From Marvinbryantia formatexigens DSM 14469 (GTDB taxonomy: Bacteria; Bacillota; Clostridia; Lachnospirales; Lachnospiraceae), in the NCBI RefSeq assembly GCF_025148285.1, contig NZ_CP102268.1, forward strand, positions 2,335,001 to 2,399,000: a stretch of 64,000 bases of DNA, given 5' to 3'. The notes under the pieces were generated by a model, which was given only the letters and a program-made list of their open reading frames with translations, was not told the origin of the DNA and ran no database searches. The translations under genes were made by a program, and so were the position numbers. Position 1 is the stretch's first letter. Each line of letters opens with the position of its first letter. Positions 15,172-30,331 of the stretch are shown here, in pieces.

Positions 15172-17034
15172 GTTTGCGCGTCATGGGCGCGCTCTAACGG
15201 GTGCAAGTCCCGAACATGCCCGGATAGTGGGAAATGTATAGCTGAACAGCAAGGGTGTCCATCGCGAGGTGGAATCTGAAGGAAGCTGTAGGCAAATCTC
15301 TGGTCCGACGGACAGAAATCGCATATAAGGCTAGGCTACGAGAGATAAGCTGGCAGAAAGCAACGAAGTCTAATAACTATCACGTTTGTAGTAGCAGAGT
15401 AAATGCGGCGGATATATGGAGAGAAAGAGCGTGCACCTTAAGCGTGGAGGTCTCACAGAGGTTCCATCAGCCTAGTAACAACGAACTGTGAGAAGTCAGC
15501 AGAGTCCATAGTAGTGAGGAAGTCTCAGTAATGGAGATGGAGCGAAGGGGCGAACAATCAATCAGTTTGAGTAGGTCTCGTGTTGCAGAAGAGACAGACA
15601 TCCGCCGTAACCAATCGGGGAAAAGATGGTCAAATCAAGCGAGACGGAAAGGAAAGAACGCATGGACACAAGTAGTCTAATGGAGCAGATATTATCCAGA
15701 GATAATCTCAACAGAGCGTACCTGCAAGTCGTACGAAACAAAGGTGCAGAGGGAGTGGACGGAATGAAGTACACGGAACTTAAGGAGCACCTTGCAAAGA
15801 ACGGCGAAATCATCAAGGAACAGCTGAGGACAAGGAAATATAAGCCTCAGCCAGTACGAAGAGTGGAGATACCAAAGACGGATGGCGGTGTCAGAAATCT
15901 GGGAGTACCAACAGTAACAGACAGATTTGTACAACAAGCCATAGCACAAGTGTTAACACCAATCTATGAAGAACAGTTTCATGACCACAGTTATGGATTT
16001 AGACCAAACAGATGTGCACAGCAGGCAATCCTTGCGGCACTCGACATGATGAATGACGGAAATGACTGGATTGTAGATATTGACCTGGAAAAGTTCTTTG
16101 ACACAGTAAACCATGACAAGTTAATGACTTTAATTGGCAGAACAATCAAAGATGGAGATGTTATCTCTATTGTAAGGAAATATCTTGTAAGCGGAATCAT
16201 GATAGATGATGAGTACAGGGAATCAGTTGTGGGAACACCACAAGGAGGAAATCTTTCTCCGCTGTTAGCAAACATCATGCTCAATGAACTCGATAAGGAA
16301 ATGGAAAAGCGAGGGTTGAACTTTGTAAGATATGCGGATGACTGCATTATCATGGTAGGAAGCGAAATGTCTGCAAAGCGGGTGATGAGAAATATATCAC
16401 GTTTCATCGAAGAGAAACTGGGACTCAAGGTCAACATGACCAAGAGCAAAGCAGACAGACCACAAGGGTTAAAATACCTTGGATTCGGATTCTACTATGA
16501 CCCAATGGCACACCAATACAAGGCTAAACCACATGCAAAATCAGCTGAGAAATTTAAGAAGAAGATGAAAGAACTCACCTGCCGTAGCTGGGGCGTTAGC
16601 AACAGCTATAAGGTGGAGAAACTCAACCAACTCATCAGAGGATGGATAAACTACTTCAGGATAGGAAGCATGAAAACGCTCTGTAGAGAACTGGACGGAA
16701 ACATCAGATATTAGATTGCGCATGTGTATATGGAAACACTGGAAAACTCCCCAGAACAGAGCAAAGAATCTGATGAAACTTGATGTACCAAGATGGGCGG
16801 CATACAATATCGCTTATTGTGGCGATAAATACGCTCGTCTCGCACACAATGGCTGGATACAGAAAGCTATAAGTACAAAGAGACTAACCTCATTTGGATT
16901 AGTCTCAATGCTGGATTACTACACCGAGAGGTGTGTCACTTGTTAAGTTGATTGAACCGCCGTGTACCGAACGGTACGCACGGTGGTGTGAGAGGTCGGA
17001 ATTTCTCATTTAAGAGAAATTCCTCCTACTCGAT
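15172..17034 (+). mobile_element. Group II intron inserted in the mtnN terminator tail
   Basis: A 5' ribozyme region (15172-15625), a reverse transcriptase frame and 3' ribozyme domains are all visible. The first stem pairs GCGCG (15176-15180) with CGCGC (15188-15192). Domain V is at about 16954-16988, with a GAAC loop and a two-base CG bulge; domain VI follows with GGAATTTCTC pairing GAGAAATTCC, and the element ends CTACTCGAT. The 3' end at 17034 is fairly sure. The 5' end is inferred by restoring a continuous T-tract (ACATTTTCT/TTTTGCG) and may be off by a few bases. Insertion next to a terminator stem is typical of class C-like introns. Confidence 0.85.
15626..16946 (+). pseudogene. ltrA: Group II intron reverse transcriptase/maturase, frameshifted
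   Basis: The first part (15626-16714) encodes complete reverse transcriptase blocks, including IPKTDGGVRNLGVPT, YGFRPNRCAQQA, GTPQGGNLSPLLANI and the active-site FVRYADD. The frame ends at TAG 16712-16714 right after LDGNIRY. The maturase X-domain continues in another frame up to 16946 (RMCIWKHWKTPQNRAKNL, later SMLDYYTERC). One extra T around 16711-16712 explains the shift: removing it joins RY to RLRMCIW. No HNH endonuclease domain is seen. The intron may therefore depend on a maturase supplied in trans, unless the extra base is a sequencing error. Confidence 0.88.
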
Positions 17035-17173
17035 TTTTGCGCGAAAATGAAACGATATTATAAAAATTGAAATCATGTTGCATCACTATCAATAAAAAAA
17101 TGAGAATAGAATTCATTAATCATATTCTAATCGACGAAAAAGATGAAAGTACATGCCAAAATAGAAATTATTA

Positions 17174-17202
17174 TTGAAAATAATTTTCAAATATTATATT
17201 AT
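17174..17202 (+). promoter_or_regulatory. Possible promoter of the PatB/NanA-like island
   Basis: TTGAAA (17174-17179) and TATTAT (17197-17202) are 17 bp apart in very A/T-rich DNA, so chance matches are common. The -35 box overlaps a perfect inverted repeat, TGAAAAT/ATTTTCA, around 17175-17189. The rest of 16947-17279 holds only intron domains V and VI and A/T-rich sequence. Confidence 0.35.
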
Positions 17203-17279
17203 TAATAATATTAAAAGTTTAGCCATATTTATATTATTTTAACAAAAATAATCAAGAAATAGAAGAAAGGATGTGCCAA

Positions 17280-18452
17280 ATGTACCAATACGATTTTGAC
17301 GCCATAATTGACAGGAATGGAACAGATTGCAGCAAGTGGGACGATATTCCTTATCAGGTACAGGCAGATGATATGCTCCCTATGTGGACAGCAGATATGG
17401 ATTTCGCTTGTCCGCCAGCGGTAATGGATGCTATCCGTACTCGCATGGAACATCCGGTTTTTGGATATATGAAATTGCCTGCACGCTATGAAGAAAGTAT
17501 TATACTGTGGCACAAAAAGCGTTATGGAAGCGAAATAAAAAAAGAAGAAATTATCCCGGTAGCAAGTGTACTGGGAGGTGTGGCAATGGCAATCCAGGGA
17601 CTGACAGAAAAAGGAGACAAAATTTTGATTTCCACACCGGGATATCATGCCTTTTCCAATGCGGTCCTAAATAATGAAAGAATCCTGGTTCCTTCTCCTA
17701 TGATAAAAAAAGAAGAACTTTACTATATGGATTTTGCACGAATGGAGAAACAGATAGAGGAAGAAAACATTAAATTATTTTTGCTTTGCTCACCACACAA
17801 TCCGACGGGACGCATCTGGACACAGGAGGAATTGGAAATACTGGTAGAATTGTGCTGGCGTCACAGGGTGTATATTATTTCAGATGAAATACACGCGGAT
17901 ATGACTCTGACACATCCGTTCCTTCCGGTTTTGAAAGCAGGAGGGGACAAGGCAGCGGAAATTACCATTGCTCTTTATGCACCTACAAAAACCTTTAATA
18001 TTGCTGGTCTTTGTACAGCCTATGCAGTGATTAAGAACCAGAATCTCGCGGATCGCTTTAAAAAAGCTTTGCTCGCTTCCGGACTGAAGCTGAAAAATAC
18101 ACTTGGCGTAGAAGCTATGATAGGGGGATATCTGAATGGAGCGCAGTGGGTTGATGAGCTGCAGAGGTATTTGCTGGATAATGCGAGCTTTGCGGTGGAA
18201 TATATAAAGGAAAATATTCCGGTCATTCAGGCTTATGTACCGCAGGCTACATATTTTCTGTGGCTGGATTTTGCAAAGACCGGTCTTTGCCAGGATGAAA
18301 TCATAGAAAAAATTGTAAATGAAGCGCACATTGCAGTAACAAGAGGTGATGATTTTATAAGAGGCGGAGATACCTGCGTACGTATGGTCTATGCATGTCC
18401 GAGGACCAGGCTCGCAGAGGCTTTGACCCGGCTCAAAAAAGTATTTGCATAA
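17280..18452 (+). CDS. PatB/MalY-family pyridoxal phosphate C-S lyase or aminotransferase
   Basis: 390 residues of fold-type I PLP enzyme. The cofactor lysine is Lys237 in APTKTFNIAGL, preceded by the SPHNPTGR and ISDEIHADM blocks. The N-terminal MLPMWTADMDF segment separates the MalY/PatB branch (cystathionine beta-lyase-like) from ordinary aminotransferases. It should cleave C-S bonds of cystathionine or cysteine conjugates. ATG 17280 is chosen because GAAAGG lies 9 bases upstream; ATG 17271 is too close to that site. It is 14 bases before the aldolase gene and is probably the first gene of the operon, yet its link to the sugar genes is unclear. Confidence 0.88.
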   Translation: MYQYDFDAIIDRNGTDCSKWDDIPYQVQADDMLPMWTADMDFACPPAVMDAIRTRMEHPVFGYMKLPARYEESIILWHKKRYGSEIKKEEIIPVASVLGGVAMAIQGLTEKGDKILISTPGYHAFSNAVLNNERILVPSPMIKKEELYYMDFARMEKQIEEENIKLFLLCSPHNPTGRIWTQEELEILVELCWRHRVYIISDEIHADMTLTHPFLPVLKAGGDKAAEITIALYAPTKTFNIAGLCTAYAVIKNQNLADRFKKALLASGLKLKNTLGVEAMIGGYLNGAQWVDELQRYLLDNASFAVEYIKENIPVIQAYVPQATYFLWLDFAKTGLCQDEIIEKIVNEAHIAVTRGDDFIRGGDTCVRMVYACPRTRLAEALTRLKKVFA

Positions 18453-18466
18453 AGGAGGATAAGAAA

Positions 18467-19384
18467 ATGGAAAAAAGATATCCGAGGATGGCACTGGGGG
18501 CGGCACTGGTTCCGTGGAAGAATGATTTCACTCTGGATGAGGCGCTGTTTCGAAAAGGCGTACACACGATGTCAGAGGGTGGTTTGAAATATTTGTATAT
18601 CTTTGGAACGGCAGGCGAAGGGTTTGCGGTAAATGATGAGCAATTTGTGGAAATCAGCAGAATTTTTGTGGATGAGTTGAAGAATACAGATACAACACCG
18701 ATTGTGGGAGTAATCAGTCTTTCTTCTTCCGAAATTCTGCATCGCTTACAACTGGCGTATAATCTGGGGGTGCGGGATTTTCAGATTTCTTTTCCATCAT
18801 GGGGAGCGTTGACGGATGAAGAAGTGGATGTTTTCTTTCATCAGATATGTGATTCGTTTCCAGATTGCAAATTTATGCATTATAACAATGGGGGGCGTTC
18901 GAAAAAATTGCTCCGTGCCAAGGATTATGTGCGGCTTGCCAGTGAAATCCCGAACCTGGCAGCGGTTAAGTTTATGAATGATTCTCTGGAGGATGTAATT
19001 AATGCAGTAAAAGCGGAAACTCCGATTCAGTTTGTGCTGAGTGAGTATGGCTATGGATATGGCTGTCTTTTTGGAGAGTGCAGTATGTTATTTTCCAGTA
19101 TCTCCTCACATCTTCCAACAGCATGGCGGCTATATCGTGCGGGAATTGAAAAGGATATTCCGACAATTGTTGAACTTGAAAAGGAAGTGGCAGTTTCACA
19201 GGAGGTTCTGTTTGAAACATGTGCGACACCGGTAATTAATGCGGCATACGATAAACTTTATATAAAAACAGTGCTGCCGGAATTTCCAATGAGATTGTAT
19301 CCGCCATATCAGACCTTCTCGGAAGAGCAGGTAAACAACTACATGAGAAAAATGCGGGAGAGACTTCCACAATGGTTTCAATAA
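18467..19384 (+). CDS. DapA/NanA-superfamily aldolase, divergent
   Basis: 305 residues of TIM-barrel class I aldolase. The Schiff-base lysine is Lys168 in AAVKFMND and the catalytic tyrosine is Tyr139 in MHYNNG; GTAGEG takes the place of the usual substrate-binding GTTGE/GSSGE loop. These enzymes condense or cleave pyruvate with an aldehyde. The Gly-Gly-Arg after the catalytic Tyr and the IFGTAGEG loop differ from the paralogue downstream, so the aldehyde partner probably differs too. RBS AAAGGAGG is 9 bases before ATG 18467. The substrate is unknown. Confidence 0.86.
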   Translation: MEKRYPRMALGAALVPWKNDFTLDEALFRKGVHTMSEGGLKYLYIFGTAGEGFAVNDEQFVEISRIFVDELKNTDTTPIVGVISLSSSEILHRLQLAYNLGVRDFQISFPSWGALTDEEVDVFFHQICDSFPDCKFMHYNNGGRSKKLLRAKDYVRLASEIPNLAAVKFMNDSLEDVINAVKAETPIQFVLSEYGYGYGCLFGECSMLFSSISSHLPTAWRLYRAGIEKDIPTIVELEKEVAVSQEVLFETCATPVINAAYDKLYIKTVLPEFPMRLYPPYQTFSEEQVNNYMRKMRERLPQWFQ

Positions 19385-19409
19385 TTAATACATATAAAGG
19401 AGGAAACAT

Positions 19410-20330
19410 ATGAGAGACATTACAAAATATCAGGGAATTATACCGGCATTTTATGCCTGCTATGCAGAGGATGGCTGTATAAGTGAAAAGAGGACGCAAA
19501 TCTGGGCACAGTATTTGCTGGAGAAAGGCGTGAAGGGCGTATACGTTGGGGGCTCTTCTGGTGAGTGCATTTATCAGAGTGTTGAGGAACGCAAGAGACT
19601 TCTGGAAGCGTTGATGGAAGTGGCAAAAGGAAAAATGACTGTGATTGCCCATGTTGCATGTAATAATACGAAAGATAGCTGCGAACTGGCTGCCCATGCA
19701 CAAAAGTGCGGCGTGGATGCAATTGCCTCTATTCCGCCGATTTATTTCCATCTGCCGGAGCATTCGGTTGCACAGTACTGGAACGATATTTCTGCAGCGG
19801 CACCAGACACGGATTTTATAATCTATAATATCCCGCAGCTTGCCGGAACAGCACTTACGATGTCACTGTTTCATGAAATGCTGAAAAATCCACGGGTGGC
19901 AGGCGTAAAAAACAGTTCCATGCCAATTCAGGATATTCAGATGTTTAAAATGGATGGCGGAAAAGATTTTGCTGTATTTAATGGTCCGGATGAGCAGCTT
20001 GTCGGAGGACTTGCTATTGGTGCGGATGGGGCGATTGGCGGAACCTATGGTGTAATGCCGGAATTGTACCTGAAGATTTATGAGCTTTGTAAAAATGGAG
20101 AATATGAAAAAGCGCGCCCGATTCAGTATGCGGCAGATGAGATTATTTATGAAATCTGTTCCTGCAGAGGAAATATGTATGCGGTAATTAAAGAGATTAT
20201 CCGCAGAAGAGAAGGAATTGATTTGGGTGATGTAAGAAAACCGCTGGCCTCTGTTGACAGAAAGCTGGATGAAGCAAAGATTGAGAGCAGTCTGCAGAAA
20301 ATCAGGGAAGCTGTTGCAAAGTTTTCATGA
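19410..20330 (+). CDS. nanA: N-acetylneuraminate lyase-like aldolase
   Basis: 306 residues. The motifs fit N-acetylneuraminate lyase: GGSSGECI loop, Tyr139 in YNIPQLAG, and Schiff-base Lys167 in AGVKNSS, spaced almost exactly as in E. coli NanA (Tyr137, Lys165). The reaction would split sialic acid into pyruvate and N-acetylmannosamine in the cytoplasm. Downstream come an ABC importer and a YhcH/NanQ-like protein, which supports a sialic-acid-type role. However, no NanE epimerase or NanK kinase is present in the window, so the true substrate could be another ulosonic acid. RBS AAAGGAGG. Confidence 0.85.
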   Translation: MRDITKYQGIIPAFYACYAEDGCISEKRTQIWAQYLLEKGVKGVYVGGSSGECIYQSVEERKRLLEALMEVAKGKMTVIAHVACNNTKDSCELAAHAQKCGVDAIASIPPIYFHLPEHSVAQYWNDISAAAPDTDFIIYNIPQLAGTALTMSLFHEMLKNPRVAGVKNSSMPIQDIQMFKMDGGKDFAVFNGPDEQLVGGLAIGADGAIGGTYGVMPELYLKIYELCKNGEYEKARPIQYAADEIIYEICSCRGNMYAVIKEIIRRREGIDLGDVRKPLASVDRKLDEAKIESSLQKIREAVAKFS

Positions 20331-20368
20331 TGACTGATAATTGATTTTTCAAAAAGGAGAAGAATCAG

Positions 20369-21259
20369 ATGAATAAAACGAAAAGGAAGTGGCATTGGAA
20401 TAAAACACTGACAGGTTTTCTGTTTGTATTGCCGCAGCTGTTGTTTTTTGCGGTATTTACAGTTTACCCGATTTTTGAGGGATTTCGTATCAGTCTTTAC
20501 AAGACAACTGCCGTAGAAAATACGTTTGTAGGACTGCAGAATTACATTACTCTTTTCCAGGATAGCGTATTTATTAAAAGTATTTTCAATACATTATTTT
20601 TAGTTGCAGTTATTACTGTGGGAATGCTGCTTCTGGGACTGGTAATTTCTCTGGCGATATTTGACAAGAGCAATGGCTATGTTACTTTTATCAGAAGTAC
20701 AGTTTACCTTCCGGTAATCGTTTCCACGGTCGTAATGAGTATGGTATGGAAATTCCTGCTGAATCCGGCAAATGGTCTGGTGAATTATTATCTGGGAAAG
20801 ATGGGTTCGAAGAATACGAATCTGCTTGGTAATCCGGACACGGCAATCTGGGTGATTGCGTTTGTAACGATTATTGCAAGTGTGGGTACGGCGGTAATTA
20901 TGTATGTAGCAAGTATGAATGGCGTTTCTTCGGAAATGCTGGAGGCGGCAAAGGTGGATGGCGCAAGCAAACTCCAGATTTCCATAAAAATTATTATTCC
21001 GCTTGTGAAAGCGACAACGCTGTATCTGTCTGTTACAACAATTATTTCGATTCTGAAGCTGTTTGTTGTAATCCAGCTGATGACAGATGGAGGACCGAAT
21101 AATGCTACTATGACAATGATGTATTATCTGTACAAAAATGCATTTGCATATGACAAGAAAAATATTGCGGCTGCAGTTGGTGTACTGATGTTTATTATAG
21201 CGGTAATTATTGCAATCCCCCAGTTTTCAAGCATGACGGAGAAGGAGGGCGGTCGATGA
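20369..21259 (+). CDS. Carbohydrate ABC transporter permease, MalF type
   Basis: 296 residues and six membrane helices. The EAA loop is SEMLEAAKVDGASKLQ followed by KIIIPLVK. The N-terminus (WNKTLTGFLFVLPQLLFFAVF) is typical of the first CUT1 permease. RBS AAAAAGGAGAAG precedes the ATG. Its last codons overlap the second permease by 4 bases (ATGA). With the downstream binding protein it forms the importer of the aldolase island, probably taking up a sialic-acid-like sugar; the ATPase must be supplied from elsewhere. Confidence 0.93.
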   Translation: MNKTKRKWHWNKTLTGFLFVLPQLLFFAVFTVYPIFEGFRISLYKTTAVENTFVGLQNYITLFQDSVFIKSIFNTLFLVAVITVGMLLLGLVISLAIFDKSNGYVTFIRSTVYLPVIVSTVVMSMVWKFLLNPANGLVNYYLGKMGSKNTNLLGNPDTAIWVIAFVTIIASVGTAVIMYVASMNGVSSEMLEAAKVDGASKLQISIKIIIPLVKATTLYLSVTTIISILKLFVVIQLMTDGGPNNATMTMMYYLYKNAFAYDKKNIAAAVGVLMFIIAVIIAIPQFSSMTEKEGGR

Positions 21260-22110
21260 AGAAAAAGAAAGGCTTTTTACGTAAATGGAAGCGCATGGAA
21301 CCGCTGGATAAGTTTGTGAATGTACTGGTTATTTTATATGCCATCATTAATTTATTTCCATTTTACTATCTTATCACAAGTTCCTTCAAAACATCGGCGG
21401 CAATTTTTAAGATGCCGCCGGACTGGTGGCCGAAAACTTTCCGTTACCAGAATTATCTGGATTTGTTTAGAGGACAACCGGCATTCCGGTGGGCGGCAAA
21501 CAGTTTCCTGGTTGCTTTTTTGACAACAATGCTTGTGGTTATCTGTTCATCAATGGCTGCCTACGGAATATCAAAGGTTCGATTTAAAGGAAAAAATATT
21601 ATATTTGCTATTTTTATAGGTGCACTGATGATACCGAAGGAGATTTTCATTGTTCCTTTGTTTCAGATTATTACAAATTTGAATCTCAGTGATACATATG
21701 CGGGAATGATATTACCGAATGTGGCAAGTACGTTTGGCGTTTTTCTGCTGAAAGGATTTTTTGACACCGTACCGGATTCGATAAGGGAATCGGGTAAGCT
21801 GGATGGCGCAAGTGAATTCCGTATTTTTTCAGAGCTGATAATACCAATCGTGAAACCAGGTATTGGAGCGTTGTTTATTTTGAATTTTGTAAATATATGG
21901 AATGATTACCTTTGGCAGTTATTGATTGCCAGAAGCAAGAATATGATGACGTTAATGGTTGGTACAGCCAGCATTATGCAGGAGATTAGCCCGAACTATG
22001 GTTATAAAATGGCAGGAGCTGCGGTGGCAAGTGTACCTATGCTTTTAATTTTCCTGTTTTTCCAGAGGTACTTCACATCTGGTATTACGATGGGTGCAGT
22101 AAAAGAATAA
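21256..22110 (+). CDS. Carbohydrate ABC transporter permease, MalG type
   Basis: 284 residues with six membrane helices and the EAA loop DSIRESGKLDGASEFR followed by ELIIPIVKPG. The end, FFQRYFTSGITMGAVKE, is typical of the second CUT1 permease. The reading frame starts inside the last codons of the preceding permease gene, so the two are translationally coupled. It is followed after 70 bases by the gene for the binding protein. The order permease-permease-binding protein is the reverse of the more common arrangement seen at 30365-33544. Confidence 0.93.
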   Translation: MKKKKGFLRKWKRMEPLDKFVNVLVILYAIINLFPFYYLITSSFKTSAAIFKMPPDWWPKTFRYQNYLDLFRGQPAFRWAANSFLVAFLTTMLVVICSSMAAYGISKVRFKGKNIIFAIFIGALMIPKEIFIVPLFQIITNLNLSDTYAGMILPNVASTFGVFLLKGFFDTVPDSIRESGKLDGASEFRIFSELIIPIVKPGIGALFILNFVNIWNDYLWQLLIARSKNMMTLMVGTASIMQEISPNYGYKMAGAAVASVPMLLIFLFFQRYFTSGITMGAVKE

Positions 22111-22180
22111 TGTTTTAATATGGTTTGAGGAATGACATGAGATGCATTCTTAAACAATAAAATTCAAAGGAGGAAATCAA

Positions 22181-23548
22181 ATGAAAAAAAGAGTAATGGC
22201 AATGGCACTGGCTTCTGCAATGGTACTGTCAATGACGGCTCCGGCAACTGCAGCTGATGAAGGACAGGAAATCGCAGGCGGAAAAGATGTATCACTGACG
22301 CTGTGGCTGACACCGAGCTGGAAAGGTGTTTTCAGCGGGGATGAACCGGATGCGGATTATGACAGTTTCTTCAAGGAAGCTGCAAAGAGATACAACGAGA
22401 TGCATCCAAATGTAACGATTAATGTAGAAGTTATTGCAGGCGACAGCAGAGACGAAAAACTGAATGTTGCGGAGTCAACAGATACGCTTCCGGATATTGT
22501 GTATGAGGGAGCATTTACAATGTCTTCTTATTATCATAAAGGCTCGATTGTAGCTCTGGACGATATTATCAGCGAGGATGACAAGGCAGACATTGCGGAT
22601 GGAATCTGGGAAAACTGCCAGGTAGAGGGAGCAACATTTATTTTCCCATTTGCACATATGCCGGGGACATTGATTTACAATGCCGATATGTTTAAAACAG
22701 CAGGTCTTGATGACTACATTAAAGGGGAATATGAGATTGCTACATGGTCGCCGGATGAACTGCGAGAAATACTGACAGCTCTGAGAGACTGTGAGGAGCT
22801 GGGCGGCGTATATCCGATGTCGCTGTTCTGCATGAACAATCAGGCAGATACATGGAATCTTACCTATCTGAGAATGTTTGGAAATACGTTTTTTGACGAA
22901 ACCGGGCATCTGTGTGTAAATGAAGAGAACGGAGTAAAGGCGCTTCAGTACATTCTCGACCTGTCTGCGGACGGTCTGACTGTTCCGGGAGCGGAATCTC
23001 TGACTTCGAATGACTGTAACGCGATGTTCCAGAATCAGCAGATTGCGGTAAGTTTTACAAACAGTACATTGTATACAAATCTTCAGACGGATATGTCAAA
23101 CGGTACAGTAGAGCCGTTTGATGCTAGACTGGCCAACATCCCTGGAGACCCGGAACCGCATTCTTTCACGTATGTTTCCGGCTTTATGGCAATGAATACA
23201 GGTGACGAAGACAGAATTGCTGCTTCTAAGGACTTCATCCAGTATGTATGCACGGATGAGGAACTGGTACTTGCTTCTAAGAATACTTTGCCGGTGCGCA
23301 CTTCTGTAACGGAGCAGGTAAAGGATGAAATGCCGTTATTGGAGGCATATAACGCAAATGCACAGTATATATTTAATTTTTCCAATAACATGCCGGGTTA
23401 TAACGAGCTGAGAAACGTGCTGTTCCCGGAACTTCAGGCTGCACTGATTGGACAGAAAACGGCACAGGAAGCTCTGGATGATTATGTGGAAAAGGGCAAT
23501 CAGGTAATTGATGAAGGACGGGCAAACTCTGTGGTTTATAATCAGTAA
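22181..23548 (+). CDS. Extracellular sugar-binding protein (family 1) without lipobox
   Basis: 455 residues. The signal peptide MKKRVMAMALASAMVLSM ends in PATAAD, a type I cleavage site; no lipobox cysteine is present, so the mature protein would not be lipid-anchored in the usual way. The body shows family 1 binding-protein features (LTLWLTPSWKG, KDFIQYV near the C-terminus). It is expected to deliver the island's sugar to the two permeases. RBS AAAGGAGG is ideal. A hairpin at 23613-23642 follows and may separate expression of this gene from the enzymes downstream. Confidence 0.9.
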   Translation: MKKRVMAMALASAMVLSMTAPATAADEGQEIAGGKDVSLTLWLTPSWKGVFSGDEPDADYDSFFKEAAKRYNEMHPNVTINVEVIAGDSRDEKLNVAESTDTLPDIVYEGAFTMSSYYHKGSIVALDDIISEDDKADIADGIWENCQVEGATFIFPFAHMPGTLIYNADMFKTAGLDDYIKGEYEIATWSPDELREILTALRDCEELGGVYPMSLFCMNNQADTWNLTYLRMFGNTFFDETGHLCVNEENGVKALQYILDLSADGLTVPGAESLTSNDCNAMFQNQQIAVSFTNSTLYTNLQTDMSNGTVEPFDARLANIPGDPEPHSFTYVSGFMAMNTGDEDRIAASKDFIQYVCTDEELVLASKNTLPVRTSVTEQVKDEMPLLEAYNANAQYIFNFSNNMPGYNELRNVLFPELQAALIGQKTAQEALDDYVEKGNQVIDEGRANSVVYNQ

Positions 23549-23612
23549 ATGATTATAATCCGTTCTGCGGCAAAAATTCTGTGATATGAGTAATATTGTT
23601 TCAGATTCATGA

Positions 23613-23645
23613 AAGAGCTGCAGATTTATATCTGCGGCTCTTACT
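23613..23645 (+). terminator. Hairpin after the binding-protein gene, weak terminator
   Basis: A 13-bp stem with one G-T pair, 23613-23625 with 23630-23642, encloses the loop TTAT and is followed only by TTACT. It looks like a partial terminator or mRNA-stabilising 3' structure rather than a full stop. Confidence 0.55.
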
Positions 23646-23705
23646 CTCAGTGGAGAACTGGATTGCGCTCCGGTGCAATCAGAAATGATGAATGGGGTTG
23701 CATAT

Positions 23706-24500
23706 ATGTATAAAATAATAGATGTTCATGCGCATTTTGGAAATCCGGATGGATTTCCGCAGGGGGTTCTGGAAAAAGAAATGTATCGTATCAGCTTAAA
23801 GAAGCTGGAGGAAATATACCGTCTGCAGGGAATCCAGGCAGCCTGCATTTCACCGATGGAGGGGATATTTCCACGTAATAAAGAGGAATTGCTGGATGCT
23901 AATCGTTGCATGGAAGAGCTGTCGCAGACGCATGACTGGATTTATCAGTGGGTAGTTGTTAATCCATTGATGCCGGAGAGCTATTATCAGGCGGAAAAAA
24001 TGCTGCGGGGAGAAAAATGTGTCGGGGTGAAAATACATCCGGATGCACAAAAATATGATATTGGACAATGGGGAGATGAGATTTTTTCGTTTTGCAGCAA
24101 TCAGAAAGCGGTATTGCTGTCCCATAGCGGAGAAATGCTGAGTATGCCGGAGCATTTTGTGACGTTTGTGAATCGTTTTCCGGATGTACAGGTAATTGTT
24201 GCTCACCTCGGATGTGGTTATGACGGTGATATTTCACATCAGGTGCGGGCAATCAGAGAAGCAGCGAAAAATAATATTTATACAGATGTATCAAGTGCCA
24301 GAAGTATTCTGAACGGGCTGATAGAGTGGGCGGTGCGTGAGGTTTCTGAAAAGAAACTGCTGTTTGGGACAGATACTCCGCTGCACCATATACCAATGAT
24401 GAAAAAAAGAATAGAAACCGCGGAGCTGACGGAAAAACAGAAAGAAGCGATTTTCTGGAAAAATGCAGTACAACTGCTCCCAAAGCTGGCAGATGTGTAA
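23706..24500 (+). CDS. Amidohydrolase-family metal-dependent hydrolase
   Basis: 264 residues of TIM-barrel hydrolase. IIDVHAHFGNP at the N-terminus gives the first metal-binding His-x-His, GVKIHPD and LLSHSGE the middle ligands, VIVAHLGCG another His, and LFGTDTPLHH the catalytic Asp. This is the PF04909-like branch, whose members hydrolyse amides or lactones or decarboxylate. In this island a lactonase or N-deacylase acting on the imported sugar acid is possible but unproven. ATG 23706 is taken as start because the conserved fold begins there; the upstream in-frame codons to 23673 lack an RBS. Confidence 0.82.
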   Translation: MYKIIDVHAHFGNPDGFPQGVLEKEMYRISLKKLEEIYRLQGIQAACISPMEGIFPRNKEELLDANRCMEELSQTHDWIYQWVVVNPLMPESYYQAEKMLRGEKCVGVKIHPDAQKYDIGQWGDEIFSFCSNQKAVLLSHSGEMLSMPEHFVTFVNRFPDVQVIVAHLGCGYDGDISHQVRAIREAAKNNIYTDVSSARSILNGLIEWAVREVSEKKLLFGTDTPLHHIPMMKKRIETAELTEKQKEAIFWKNAVQLLPKLADV

Positions 24501-24517
24501 GAAGAATGGAGAATAAA

Positions 24518-24967
24518 ATGATATATGGAAACGTAGAGCAAAAAGAAACATGGCAATTTCTGGAAGAAAAGCTGACAGCATGCTTTGCTTATGTGAAAAA
24601 TCATGACATGCTGCATATGCAGCCGGGAACATATGAAATAAATGGGAGACATTTTTATGTAAATGTTTCGGAGTATACAACAACTGTGCGCAGTGAACGC
24701 TTTTGGGAAGCACATCGGAAATATCTGGATGTGCATGTGATGCTGCAGGGAATAGAAACCATTGACCTTGGATTTGTCTGGAGGATGAATCCGGGAGAAT
24801 ACGAACCGGATAAGGATTTCCTGCCACTGGACGGGCAGGCGACGGCAACTGTGACGATGCGGGAGGGAGATTTTTTGATATGTATGCCTCAGGATGCACA
24901 CATGACAGCGATTATGAATGAGCAGCCACAGAAGATAAAGAAAGCGATTTTTAAGGTACAGATATAA
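24518..24967 (+). CDS. YhcH/YjgK/YiaL-family cupin (NanQ-like)
   Basis: About 149 residues of single-domain beta-barrel protein. The metal-site residues are visible: RKYLDVHVMLQG with His, an acidic residue in GIETIDLG, and PQDAHMTAI with a His near the end. E. coli NanQ (YhcH) opens or anomerises sialic acid so that NanA can use it, and YiaL-type members occur in other sugar-acid pathways. Its presence supports a sialic-acid-type role for the island. ATG 24518 has TGGAG 6 bases upstream; ATG 24506 is less well supported. Confidence 0.88.
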   Translation: MIYGNVEQKETWQFLEEKLTACFAYVKNHDMLHMQPGTYEINGRHFYVNVSEYTTTVRSERFWEAHRKYLDVHVMLQGIETIDLGFVWRMNPGEYEPDKDFLPLDGQATATVTMREGDFLICMPQDAHMTAIMNEQPQKIKKAIFKVQI

Positions 24968-24987
24968 ACAGCAGAGGGAAACAGGGA

Positions 24988-25857
24988 ATGAAAGAAGACG
25001 GGAAAATTCCGATTCCATTTATCAGAACAAAATACGAGAGCTTTACACAGATTGAAAAATGCATTGCAGATTTTTTTACCGATGAAGAACGTCTGTCAGG
25101 ATACGGGACAGAGGAACTGGCGGCAAAGAATGTGGCGGAACGCCTGTTTGTTTCGGAAGCATCTCTTTCGCGCTTTGCGAAAAAGTGCGGTTTCCGGGGG
25201 TATCGTGAAATGATTTATCAGTATGAGAAGAGCCTGAGGGATGTCAGACGAAAAAAGCATGCTGATAACAACATACAAATGGTTCTGGATTTATATCAGG
25301 AGGTTTTGAATAAAACCTATAATCTGGTAGATGAGACCCAGATTCTGCATATTGTACGTTGCATGAATACGGCAAACCGGGTGTATGTATGCGGAATGGG
25401 AAGTTCCGGACAGGCAGCCTGTGAAATGGAAAGCCGTTTTGCGCGGATTGGTGTAGACATTGATTCTATCCAGGATGCGGACAGAATGCGGATGCAGACT
25501 GTTTTCATGAATCCGGGAAAACTGGTAATCGGGCTGAGTCTGAGCGGAGAAACCGAAGAGGTACTGTATCTTTTGCGGGAATCGGGCAAGAGGAAAGCAC
25601 AGACGGTACTTTTTACGGCCAATGAACGGGAACAGCTCCGGCAGTACTGTACGGAAGTGGTGCGTCTGCCTTCTTTTCGATATATGAATTTTGGAAATGT
25701 GATTTCGCCGCAGTTACCGCTACTGATATTAATTGATATTTTGTATCATTATTATGTAAATCAGGACCGGTATTTAAAAAAATCCCTTCATGGGGATACC
25801 TTAACAGCGCTCAATGAAGGCAGAAGGCTGTACAGAACAGAAAGACTGCCGGTCTGA
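24988..25857 (+). CDS. MurR/RpiR-family transcriptional regulator
   Basis: 289 residues. An N-terminal helix-turn-helix (AERLFVSEASLSRFAKKCGFRG spans about residues 48-69, key residues SEASLSRF) is followed by a SIS sugar-phosphate-binding domain with VYVCGMGSSGQAA and LSLSGETEEV. RpiR proteins commonly control sialic acid, amino-sugar and sugar-acid loci by sensing a phosphorylated intermediate. It is the last gene of the island, ends in a strong terminator, and is the most likely local regulator. Confidence 0.9.
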   Translation: MKEDGKIPIPFIRTKYESFTQIEKCIADFFTDEERLSGYGTEELAAKNVAERLFVSEASLSRFAKKCGFRGYREMIYQYEKSLRDVRRKKHADNNIQMVLDLYQEVLNKTYNLVDETQILHIVRCMNTANRVYVCGMGSSGQAACEMESRFARIGVDIDSIQDADRMRMQTVFMNPGKLVIGLSLSGETEEVLYLLRESGKRKAQTVLFTANEREQLRQYCTEVVRLPSFRYMNFGNVISPQLPLLILIDILYHYYVNQDRYLKKSLHGDTLTALNEGRRLYRTERLPV

Positions 25858-27184: not shown

Positions 27185-28786
<1,602 letters not shown>

Positions 28787-28825
28787 TCAGATAATCTTTA
28801 TAGAAACAATATCACAAGCCGGAAA

Positions 28826-30331
28826 TTACCCGATCTGCAGGACGCCGACCATATGGGGTTTCAGATGGACGGTCATGCCGGGCGTGTACGCGCCGAGCGT
28901 CTCCCGCTGGATTGTTACTTCGGTATGTCCGATATCATTATAAGCCTCCGTGCTGTCGCCGGCAATATAATAAAGCACCGCTTCCCCGGCTCCCTCCAGC
29001 ATAAGCTGCACGGACTGTTCCTCTGCCGGGTCTTTATTTACCAGCGCAACTGCCAGCCCTTCCCGGTCGGAGAAGCAGGTCACTACAAAGTCGCAGATAT
29101 CTGTTTCCTGCGTCCCGCCCTGCTTGTCGCGGACAGTCATGCATGGCATATCCGCGCACCAGCCATCGAGCACCGTGTCGCCCAGATAATTTACATAGAG
29201 GTCGAATACATGGTAGGTCGTGCGCAGCACGATGCCCTCCGGATACGTGAAAATACAGCCCCTTGTGTTTACAATGGGAGCGAAGTTCGCCATCCCCACA
29301 ATATCACAGTGACGGTTGCAGGCATTCAGGAAGCAGGCGGTAAACACCGCGTCCGCCATCGTATACCTGCTGTTTTCGTCGTTCTTATCGCGCGGGTACA
29401 GATAATCCTCTTTCGTGCGCCCCTGCTCGATGGTATGCACATTGGGATGGTACCAGCCGCGCAGGTTCCACTCGTCAAACGCGATGCGGATTTTTTTATC
29501 CAGCTTCATGGCGGCAAGCAGACCGCGCACCTCCCGGATAGAATGGTCTATGTTGTTTGTGTATGCGCAGACCGCTTCATAGTCTGCATAATCGTTCGTC
29601 TGATGGATAGCGTCCCAGTATTCGTGGATGGAAATCCAGTCGAGAAACTGTCCGCTGCTCTCCAGCAGATTGATGTTCCACCTTAAATCTGTAAGCGCCG
29701 CCGCTGTCAGCTCGGTGTCCGGGTCCACATGTTTTATCATTTTGGCGGCTTCGCAGACAAGATGTCCCCACTCGTCTGCTGTTTTGGCTCCGATTTCCCA
29801 GAAGCCGTAGTTTTCATTGCCGATGCTCCAGTAGCGCACCTTATGAGGCTGTGGGAAACCATTCTGAATCCGCCATTTTGCATACTGCCCCTCGTTTTCC
29901 AGGTTGCAGTATTCCACCCAGTCGCTCATTTCCTCGGCGGTACCGGTTCCGGCGTTTGTGCAGATATACGGCTCGCAGCCGATTTTTCGGCAGAGGCGGA
30001 TATACTCATCCGTTCCGAAGGAATTCGGGTCCTCCACGCGCCACGCCTTATCGAACAGGGGAACCCGGTTTTTGCCGACGGCATCCTTCCAGTGATAGGA
30101 GGAAACGAAGCAGCCGCCCGGCCAGCGCAGAACGGGCACCTTTATTTTTTTCATGGCTTCGATGACGTCGCTGCGGAAGCCGTCTTCATCGGAGAGCGGA
30201 TTGCCGGGGTCGTACACGCCGCCGTAAATCTGACGGTGAAAATGCTCGATAAAATGTCCGTATATCATAGGATTGCGCTTGCCGGTCACCCGCTGCCGGG
30301 TGCCGTATAATTTCATAATGCTGTCACTCAT
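28826..30331 (-). CDS. Second alpha-L-arabinofuranosidase, GH51, divergent subgroup
   Basis: 501 residues. GH51 signatures are complete: IYGHFIEHFHRQIYGG, LRWPGGCFVSSYHW, acid/base Glu173 in SIGNENYGFW, nucleophile Glu287 in AFDEWNLRGW. It differs from its neighbour in nearly all surface segments (HFHRQ instead of HLGRA, a longer HPNVHTIEQG insert), so it is not a recent duplicate and likely prefers a different linkage or chain length. It lies directly behind the permease genes. Confidence 0.93.
   Translation of the reverse strand: MSDSIMKLYGTRQRVTGKRNPMIYGHFIEHFHRQIYGGVYDPGNPLSDEDGFRSDVIEAMKKIKVPVLRWPGGCFVSSYHWKDAVGKNRVPLFDKAWRVEDPNSFGTDEYIRLCRKIGCEPYICTNAGTGTAEEMSDWVEYCNLENEGQYAKWRIQNGFPQPHKVRYWSIGNENYGFWEIGAKTADEWGHLVCEAAKMIKHVDPDTELTAAALTDLRWNINLLESSGQFLDWISIHEYWDAIHQTNDYADYEAVCAYTNNIDHSIREVRGLLAAMKLDKKIRIAFDEWNLRGWYHPNVHTIEQGRTKEDYLYPRDKNDENSRYTMADAVFTACFLNACNRHCDIVGMANFAPIVNTRGCIFTYPEGIVLRTTYHVFDLYVNYLGDTVLDGWCADMPCMTVRDKQGGTQETDICDFVVTCFSDREGLAVALVNKDPAEEQSVQLMLEGAGEAVLYYIAGDSTEAYNDIGHTEVTIQRETLGAYTPGMTVHLKPHMVGVLQIG

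Follow-up and report, generated by a model that had tools for sequence, protein, structure and literature searches.

Canonical nan operons of the type found in R. gnavus comprise a sugar-type ATP-binding cassette (ABC) importer, a regulator of the RpiR family and an N-acetylneuraminate lyase (NAL; NanA), and these components also occur in a nine-gene block within the stretch of Marvinbryantia formatexigens DSM 14469 DNA analyzed here (NZ_CP102268.1, positions 2,335,001 to 2,399,000; 64 kb, hereafter the window), whose NanA shares 65% identity and the same compared pocket residues with the R. gnavus enzyme. In contrast to such operons, the block has no NanE, NanK, NanOx or sialidase, its solute-binding protein (SBP) is far from the canonical nan SBP of its own genome, and it adds a second aldolase (aldolase 2), a PatB-type lyase and an amidohydrolase. 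An operon on pSymB of Sinorhizobium meliloti likewise combines NanA with an aldolase 2-like protein and a transporter and without NanE or NanK, but it differs in its TRAP (tripartite ATP-independent periplasmic) transporter, in its GntR-type NanR, in the absence of a PatB-type gene and in its aldolase 2-like protein, which is about 23% identical to aldolase 2 and lacks Arg144. With regard to the enzyme itself, the trans-o-hydroxybenzylidenepyruvate hydratase-aldolases (NahE; PhdJ, structure 6dan) appear as a sister branch in the trees and share with aldolase 2 the motif P-x-W and the C-terminal motifs N...(D/E)K and R.PPY, with K-[FY]-[ML]-N, as in aldolase 2, present in one of the two NahE/PhdJ rows; they differ from it in their very low identity and in their aromatic pathway context, no aromatic ring-cleavage genes being located near the block. 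CgNal of C. glutamicum (5c54) is a protein similar to dihydrodipicolinate synthase (DHDPS) that lies outside the NAL group and acts on N-acetylneuraminic acid (Neu5Ac) and N-acetylmannosamine (ManNAc) (PMC5380162). It falls on the DHDPS branch, favours synthesis and shows about 15% identity in a structural match.

We propose, with a probability of roughly 55%, that the block is an acquired auxiliary operon for the uptake and cleavage of nonulosonates (sialic-acid-type compounds) which feeds the standard pathway encoded elsewhere in the genome. The components of the block, all on the + strand, are as follows.

17172 to 17188, + strand: RpiR-operator-like palindrome TATTGAAAATAATTTTC (GAAAATAATTTTC), 83 bases before the first block gene
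17271 to 18452, + strand: PatB/MalY-type pyridoxal phosphate (PLP) C-S lyase family protein, at the start of the operon (TIGR04350, 379 bits; cut-off 340)
18467 to 19384, + strand: aldolase 2 (ald2), divergent Schiff-base enzyme of the DHDPS superfamily (PF00701, 55 bits)
19410 to 20330, + strand: aldolase 1, N-acetylneuraminate lyase, NanA (65% identity to R. gnavus NanA, 6rab)
20369 to 21259, + strand: ABC importer permease 1, sugar type (PF00528; 67% identity to L033, a Gemmiger metagenome-assembled genome, MAG)
21256 to 22110, + strand: ABC importer permease 2 (PF00528; 73% to L033)
22181 to 23548, + strand: importer SBP (PF13416/PF01547; 69% to L033)
23673 to 24500, + strand: Amidohydro_2 metallohydrolase (PF04909, 67.5 bits; likelier start ATG at 23706)
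24506 to 24967, + strand: YhcH/DUF386 protein, possible sugar-acid anomerase (PF04074, 140 bits; TIGR00022 above cut-off)
24988 to 25857, + strand: RpiR-family regulator with helix-turn-helix and SIS domains (PF01418, PF01380)

The nine co-directional genes (17271-25857) are intact, including every one named in the original prediction, which had described a low-GC block with two aldolases, an importer, an amidohydrolase, a NanQ-like cupin and an RpiR regulator; the PatB-type gene, which occupies the start of that region and ends 14 bases before the aldolase 2 gene, had gone unmentioned. The catalytic residues given for the aldolases were correct (Tyr139 and Lys168 in aldolase 2, Tyr139 and Lys167 in aldolase 1), and the two are indeed distinct Schiff-base enzymes (21% identity over 124 amino acids), one of them outside the known subfamilies. 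The cupin was properly placed at the level of the DUF386 family, but its score with the NanQ equivalog model (102) stayed below the cut-off of 160. The importer consists of two permeases and the SBP, without an ATPase gene in the block.

The GC content of the block ranges from 0.36 to 0.46, compared with about 0.46-0.55 outside it. At third codon positions, all nine genes show values of 0.40-0.46, as opposed to 0.62-0.70 in the host genes on either side and 0.59-0.70 in those of the canonical nan operon. By this uniformly low third-position GC the block behaves like a single acquired unit, and we regard it as a horizontally acquired auxiliary module that probably feeds the standard pathway.

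A complete nan operon was found in the same genome (4.58 Mb, one contig), starting at 2545855 (locus L011), about 190 kb from the block. It comprises nanA, a ROK-family nanK, nanE (PF04131, E=6.3e-66; NF002231, 294 bits with a cut-off of 189), a GDSL esterase, an SBP, two permeases and a divergent RpiR gene, and its NanA is 68% identical to aldolase 1. The esterase (L011:10509-11183) is a candidate sialate O-acetylesterase. The original prediction had taken the lack of NanE and NanK as a sign of a candidate new ulosonic acid pathway; this lack is real within the nine genes, but the claim that the classical route is missing was rejected, as both proteins are encoded in the canonical operon. That prediction would have been refuted by nanE and nanK co-regulated elsewhere together with an importer for plain Neu5Ac, and the genome search it proposed thus goes, at the sequence level, half of that way. 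What survives of it is an island for the import and cleavage of sialic-acid-like compounds with an unclassified aldolase 2. Any undescribed ulosonic acid pathway would have to be argued from this enzyme and the PatB-type gene instead of from the absence of NanE and NanK, an absence which, for one cluster, tells little before the whole genome is searched. A nanA-nanE locus separate from the island core is also present in the Gemmiger MAG; in both genomes, therefore, the block comes on top of the standard pathway. Of the marks of a 2,7-anhydro-Neu5Ac (NanOx/SAT2) cluster, neither NanOx nor an intramolecular trans-sialidase was seen on inspecting the block and L011, no genome-wide NanOx search having been made.

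In line with a link between the two operons, an identical copy of TATTGAAAATAATTTTC is located at L011:7775-7791, between the canonical nanA and the divergent RpiR gene; exact copies numbered one in the 64-kb window and one in the 18-kb canonical locus. The longest string common to both upstream regions was 18 nt, whereas 3000 first-order Markov simulations never yielded more than 14. Similar palindromes occur close to nanE or nanA in a number of further nan loci. The RpiR-type NanR of pneumococcus recognises TCTGAAACTACTTTCAAA (PMC12713135), which resembles the 17-bp element in its GAAA..TTTC architecture but has a spacer one base shorter. Because the identical element lies upstream of both operons, co-regulation of the block and the canonical nan operon is likely, judging by these sequences. 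A catabolite-repression (cre) site was considered as well and set aside, as the element has an odd length and no central CG, in comparison with the known cre consensus.

Aldolase 1 is most readily interpreted as an ordinary N-acetylneuraminate lyase, since 196 of 303 residues are identical to R. gnavus NanA and every compared pocket residue is the same; the Schiff-base Lys167, the catalytic Tyr139 and the GSSGE and DE pocket residues are all retained. Its NF003164 score (214 bits) falls below the cut-off of 281, but so does that of the canonical NanA of this genome (222 bits), and the model thus appears to miss this whole NanA branch. The NanA of the Gemmiger island did not group with that of the window in trees, which suggests separate recruitment or replacement of the island NanA.

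The genuine novelty of the block, as far as sequence comparison goes, is aldolase 2, which belongs to no named subfamily. Apart from its weak match to PF00701, it reached no curated NCBIfam subfamily cut-off: it scored 27 bits with the nanA model (cut-off 382), fell outside the NAL clade in trees, and stayed below the dapA cut-off (41.5 vs 206). It carries T48, A49, W112, Y139, R144 and K168, and in relation to the T44-Y133-Y107 triad and Arg138 of DapA, the Thr, Tyr and Arg are kept and Y107 is replaced by Trp112. DHDPS Arg138 corresponds to a conserved leucine in NALs (PMC5380162), and aldolase 2 carries Arg144 at that position. This Trp, KFMN around the lysine, N-A-A-x-D-K and R-L-x-P-P-Y make up its signature, and the GTxGE loop, the Schiff-base Lys and the Tyr were intact in all relatives compared. 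On account of Trp112 and KFMN, aldolase 2 resembles hydratase-aldolases more than plain NALs, and may perhaps be a second Schiff-base enzyme of the hydratase-aldolase type. Structure models were weak (mean pLDDT, the predicted per-residue confidence, of 61 and 63) and supported the general DHDPS/NAL fold, nothing finer.

Close relatives of aldolase 2 are rare. No other was detected at E 1e-20 in 397 genomes of the family, none above 28% identity in 392 genomes of the order, and none further in 248 genomes around Gemmiger. A scan of 84,980 species genomes with six exact aldolase 2 peptides, whose reach is limited to close relatives, recovered two, in the Gemmiger MAG (74% identity) and in a Clostridia MAG (L034; 70%). 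The Gemmiger genome keeps six of the nine genes at 58-74% identity (PatB-type, NanA, aldolase 2, both permeases and SBP) in a changed order, with a different RpiR and without the amidohydrolase and YhcH. In the Clostridia MAG (L034:6103-10918), aldolase 2 lies downstream of an HpaB/4-hydroxybutyryl-CoA-dehydratase-like gene and of genes for a CoA-transferase and a crotonase. Carriage by phages or plasmids was discarded, as the viral contigs searched contained no aldolase 2 and the plasmid matches were remote rhizobial relatives.

These rhizobial relatives, encoded on Rhizobiales plasmids, are full-length, about 22% identical to aldolase 2, and have GTAGE, P-x-W (with Trp at the site of DHDPS Tyr107) and N-A-A-x-D-K, most of them also R-L-x-x-P-Y. 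In S. meliloti pSymB (L099:4434-9834; L107) the gene is part of the operon NanR-SiaP-TRAP-ald2like-NanA, between the TRAP transporter and nanA, and its sole annotation is 'dihydrodipicolinate synthase family protein'; NanR and NanA scored 310 and 378 (cut-offs 260 and 281), and the name SiaP is the record's own. In Rhizobium and Phyllobacterium, the ald2-like gene is the last of a peptide-type ABC operon containing another DHDPS-family gene, and in S. chiapasense it faces that operon. The trees united aldolase 2 and the rhizobial proteins in one clade (support 99/97; 95/87 with wider sampling), next to the NahE-type hydratase-aldolases (99/94), of which just two rows were included and whose branches are long; because of these long branches, the deep joins are suggestive rather than proof. 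The sequence profile ranked PhdJ level with many DHDPS. Aldolase 2 and the recurrent pairing of its clade with NanA are real and apparently undescribed in the literature searched. A nanE-like neighbour in R. anhuiense (L097) was dismissed as a cluster component, since the other rhizobia inspected do not retain it. Among these plasmids, L096, L097, L098, L101, L102 and L103 carry a peptide-type ABC operon and two different DHDPS-superfamily genes, one of them ald2-like.

According to the auxiliary-operon reading, the ABC importer would take up a sialic acid, be it an ordinary or a variant one, the YhcH protein would open the ring as an anomerase and so aid NanA, and aldolase 1 would cleave the open-chain acid to pyruvate and ManNAc (or the matching hexosamine). 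NanK and NanE of the canonical operon, 190 kb away, would then complete the breakdown, and the common RpiR-type operator would switch both operons together. Aldolase 2 would handle a form of sialic acid, or an intermediate, that NanA cannot use, an unsaturated or 4-substituted sialic acid being a putative substrate. We infer all substrates, the co-regulation, the hydratase-aldolase chemistry and any role of the PatB-type protein and the amidohydrolase. Several observations weigh against this reading: the block SBP shares just 26% identity with that of the canonical nan operon, and the block RpiR just 25% with its canonical counterpart; the 17-bp element is absent from the Gemmiger island; no BNR_2 sialidase match above cut-off was found in the genome; the clade of aldolase 2 and rhizobial proteins unites long branches at about 22% identity; and the Clostridia MAG carries aldolase 2 beside 4-hydroxybutyryl-CoA-dehydratase-like genes in a genome with neither nanE nor a close NanA, so that the enzyme's link to sialic acid does not hold in every genome.

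Going further, aldolase 2 might represent an unrecognised branch of sialic acid catabolism in gut Firmicutes and rhizobia, in which a hydratase-aldolase-type enzyme beside NanA acts on a nonulosonic acid resistant to cleavage by NanA (e.g., a 4-O-substituted or unsaturated sialic acid), with the PLP lyase as a further step; we consider this possible, if doubtful. A second DHDPS-superfamily enzyme that turns up repeatedly beside NanA in two phyla, alongside unrelated transporters, would qualify as a candidate missing step in the use of sialic acid variants. It is unlikely that the block serves a separate pathway for another ulosonic acid, such as the Kdo or Dha found in plant rhamnogalacturonan II, Kdn, or a sialic acid in modified form, with two lyases cleaving two related acids and no need for NanE and NanK. 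Two clearly different lyases behind one importer, the distant SBP, the S. meliloti operon pairing NanA with an ald2-like protein and no nanE or nanK alongside, and two GH51 arabinofuranosidase-like genes downstream (recognised by eye) would suit such a pathway, but the island NanA retains every compared pocket residue of the R. gnavus Neu5Ac lyase, the operator is common to the block and nanAKE, and in Gemmiger the module is also accompanied by canonical nanA and nanE.

The ordinary NanA, the commonness of PatB-type proteins and the occurrence of aldolase 2 without the module in the Clostridia MAG would fit a redundant second Neu5Ac uptake operon carrying, as passengers, aldolase 2 and the PatB-type enzyme, whose housekeeping or detoxifying roles would be unrelated. 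This seems quite unlikely, given that the PatB-type gene, aldolase 2, NanA and importer were kept together in the distant Gemmiger genome despite the altered order, and that the ald2-like/NanA pairing recurs in S. meliloti. D-Glucosaminate ammonia-lyase followed by 2-keto-3-deoxygluconate (KDG) aldolase provides a precedent for the PLP lyase and aldolase 2 acting in series: an amino acid or amino-aldonate would undergo beta-elimination to a 2-keto-3-deoxy acid, which aldolase 2 would cleave to pyruvate and an aldehyde. The adjacent genes, the coherent chemistry and the DHDPS-type Arg144 with the Schiff-base Lys agree with this, but the block has no dehydrogenase or deacetylase and the rhizobial clusters and the Clostridia MAG have no PatB-type neighbour, making it very improbable. 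DHDPS Tyr107 crosses the dimer interface, and its replacement by Trp, together with the adjacency of the two aldolase genes in three lineages, could point to aldolase 2 as a non-catalytic or modulating partner in mixed oligomers with NanA; we give this hardly any credence, since every relative has kept the Lys, the Tyr and an intact GTxGE loop, the similarity between the two proteins is very low, and the Clostridia MAG has aldolase 2 without a close NanA.

As for the remaining genes of the block, the PatB-type protein is 58% identical to its Gemmiger homologue and 37-39% to paralogues in its own genome. In 396 other family genomes, the amidohydrolase matched nothing at E<1e-20; no relative was found among solved structures, and there was one remote match on plasmids. 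SBP relatives in other genomes of the family were 30-36% identical, mostly not beside permeases, and provided no hint of the substrate. In L073 and L080 they are located with lyase genes, and L080:7849-14218 is a further sialic-type cluster, containing a GntR/LacI-like regulator, an SBP and permeases related to those of the island, a NanA above the NF003164 cut-off and a cupin resembling mannose-6-phosphate isomerase. The SBP homologues of L072, L074-L079 and L081-L084 stand, by eye, beside long membrane-protein or sensor-like genes instead of permeases, and were apparently reused as sensor parts.

With regard to the surroundings of the block, the two GH51-like genes adjoin it on the minus strand (window 27185-30331). 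Directly upstream of its promoter, on the same strand as the block, lies a group II intron with ribozyme parts at 15258-15550, a near full-length maturase open reading frame at 15626-16714 and a domain V recognised by eye at about 16950-17000.

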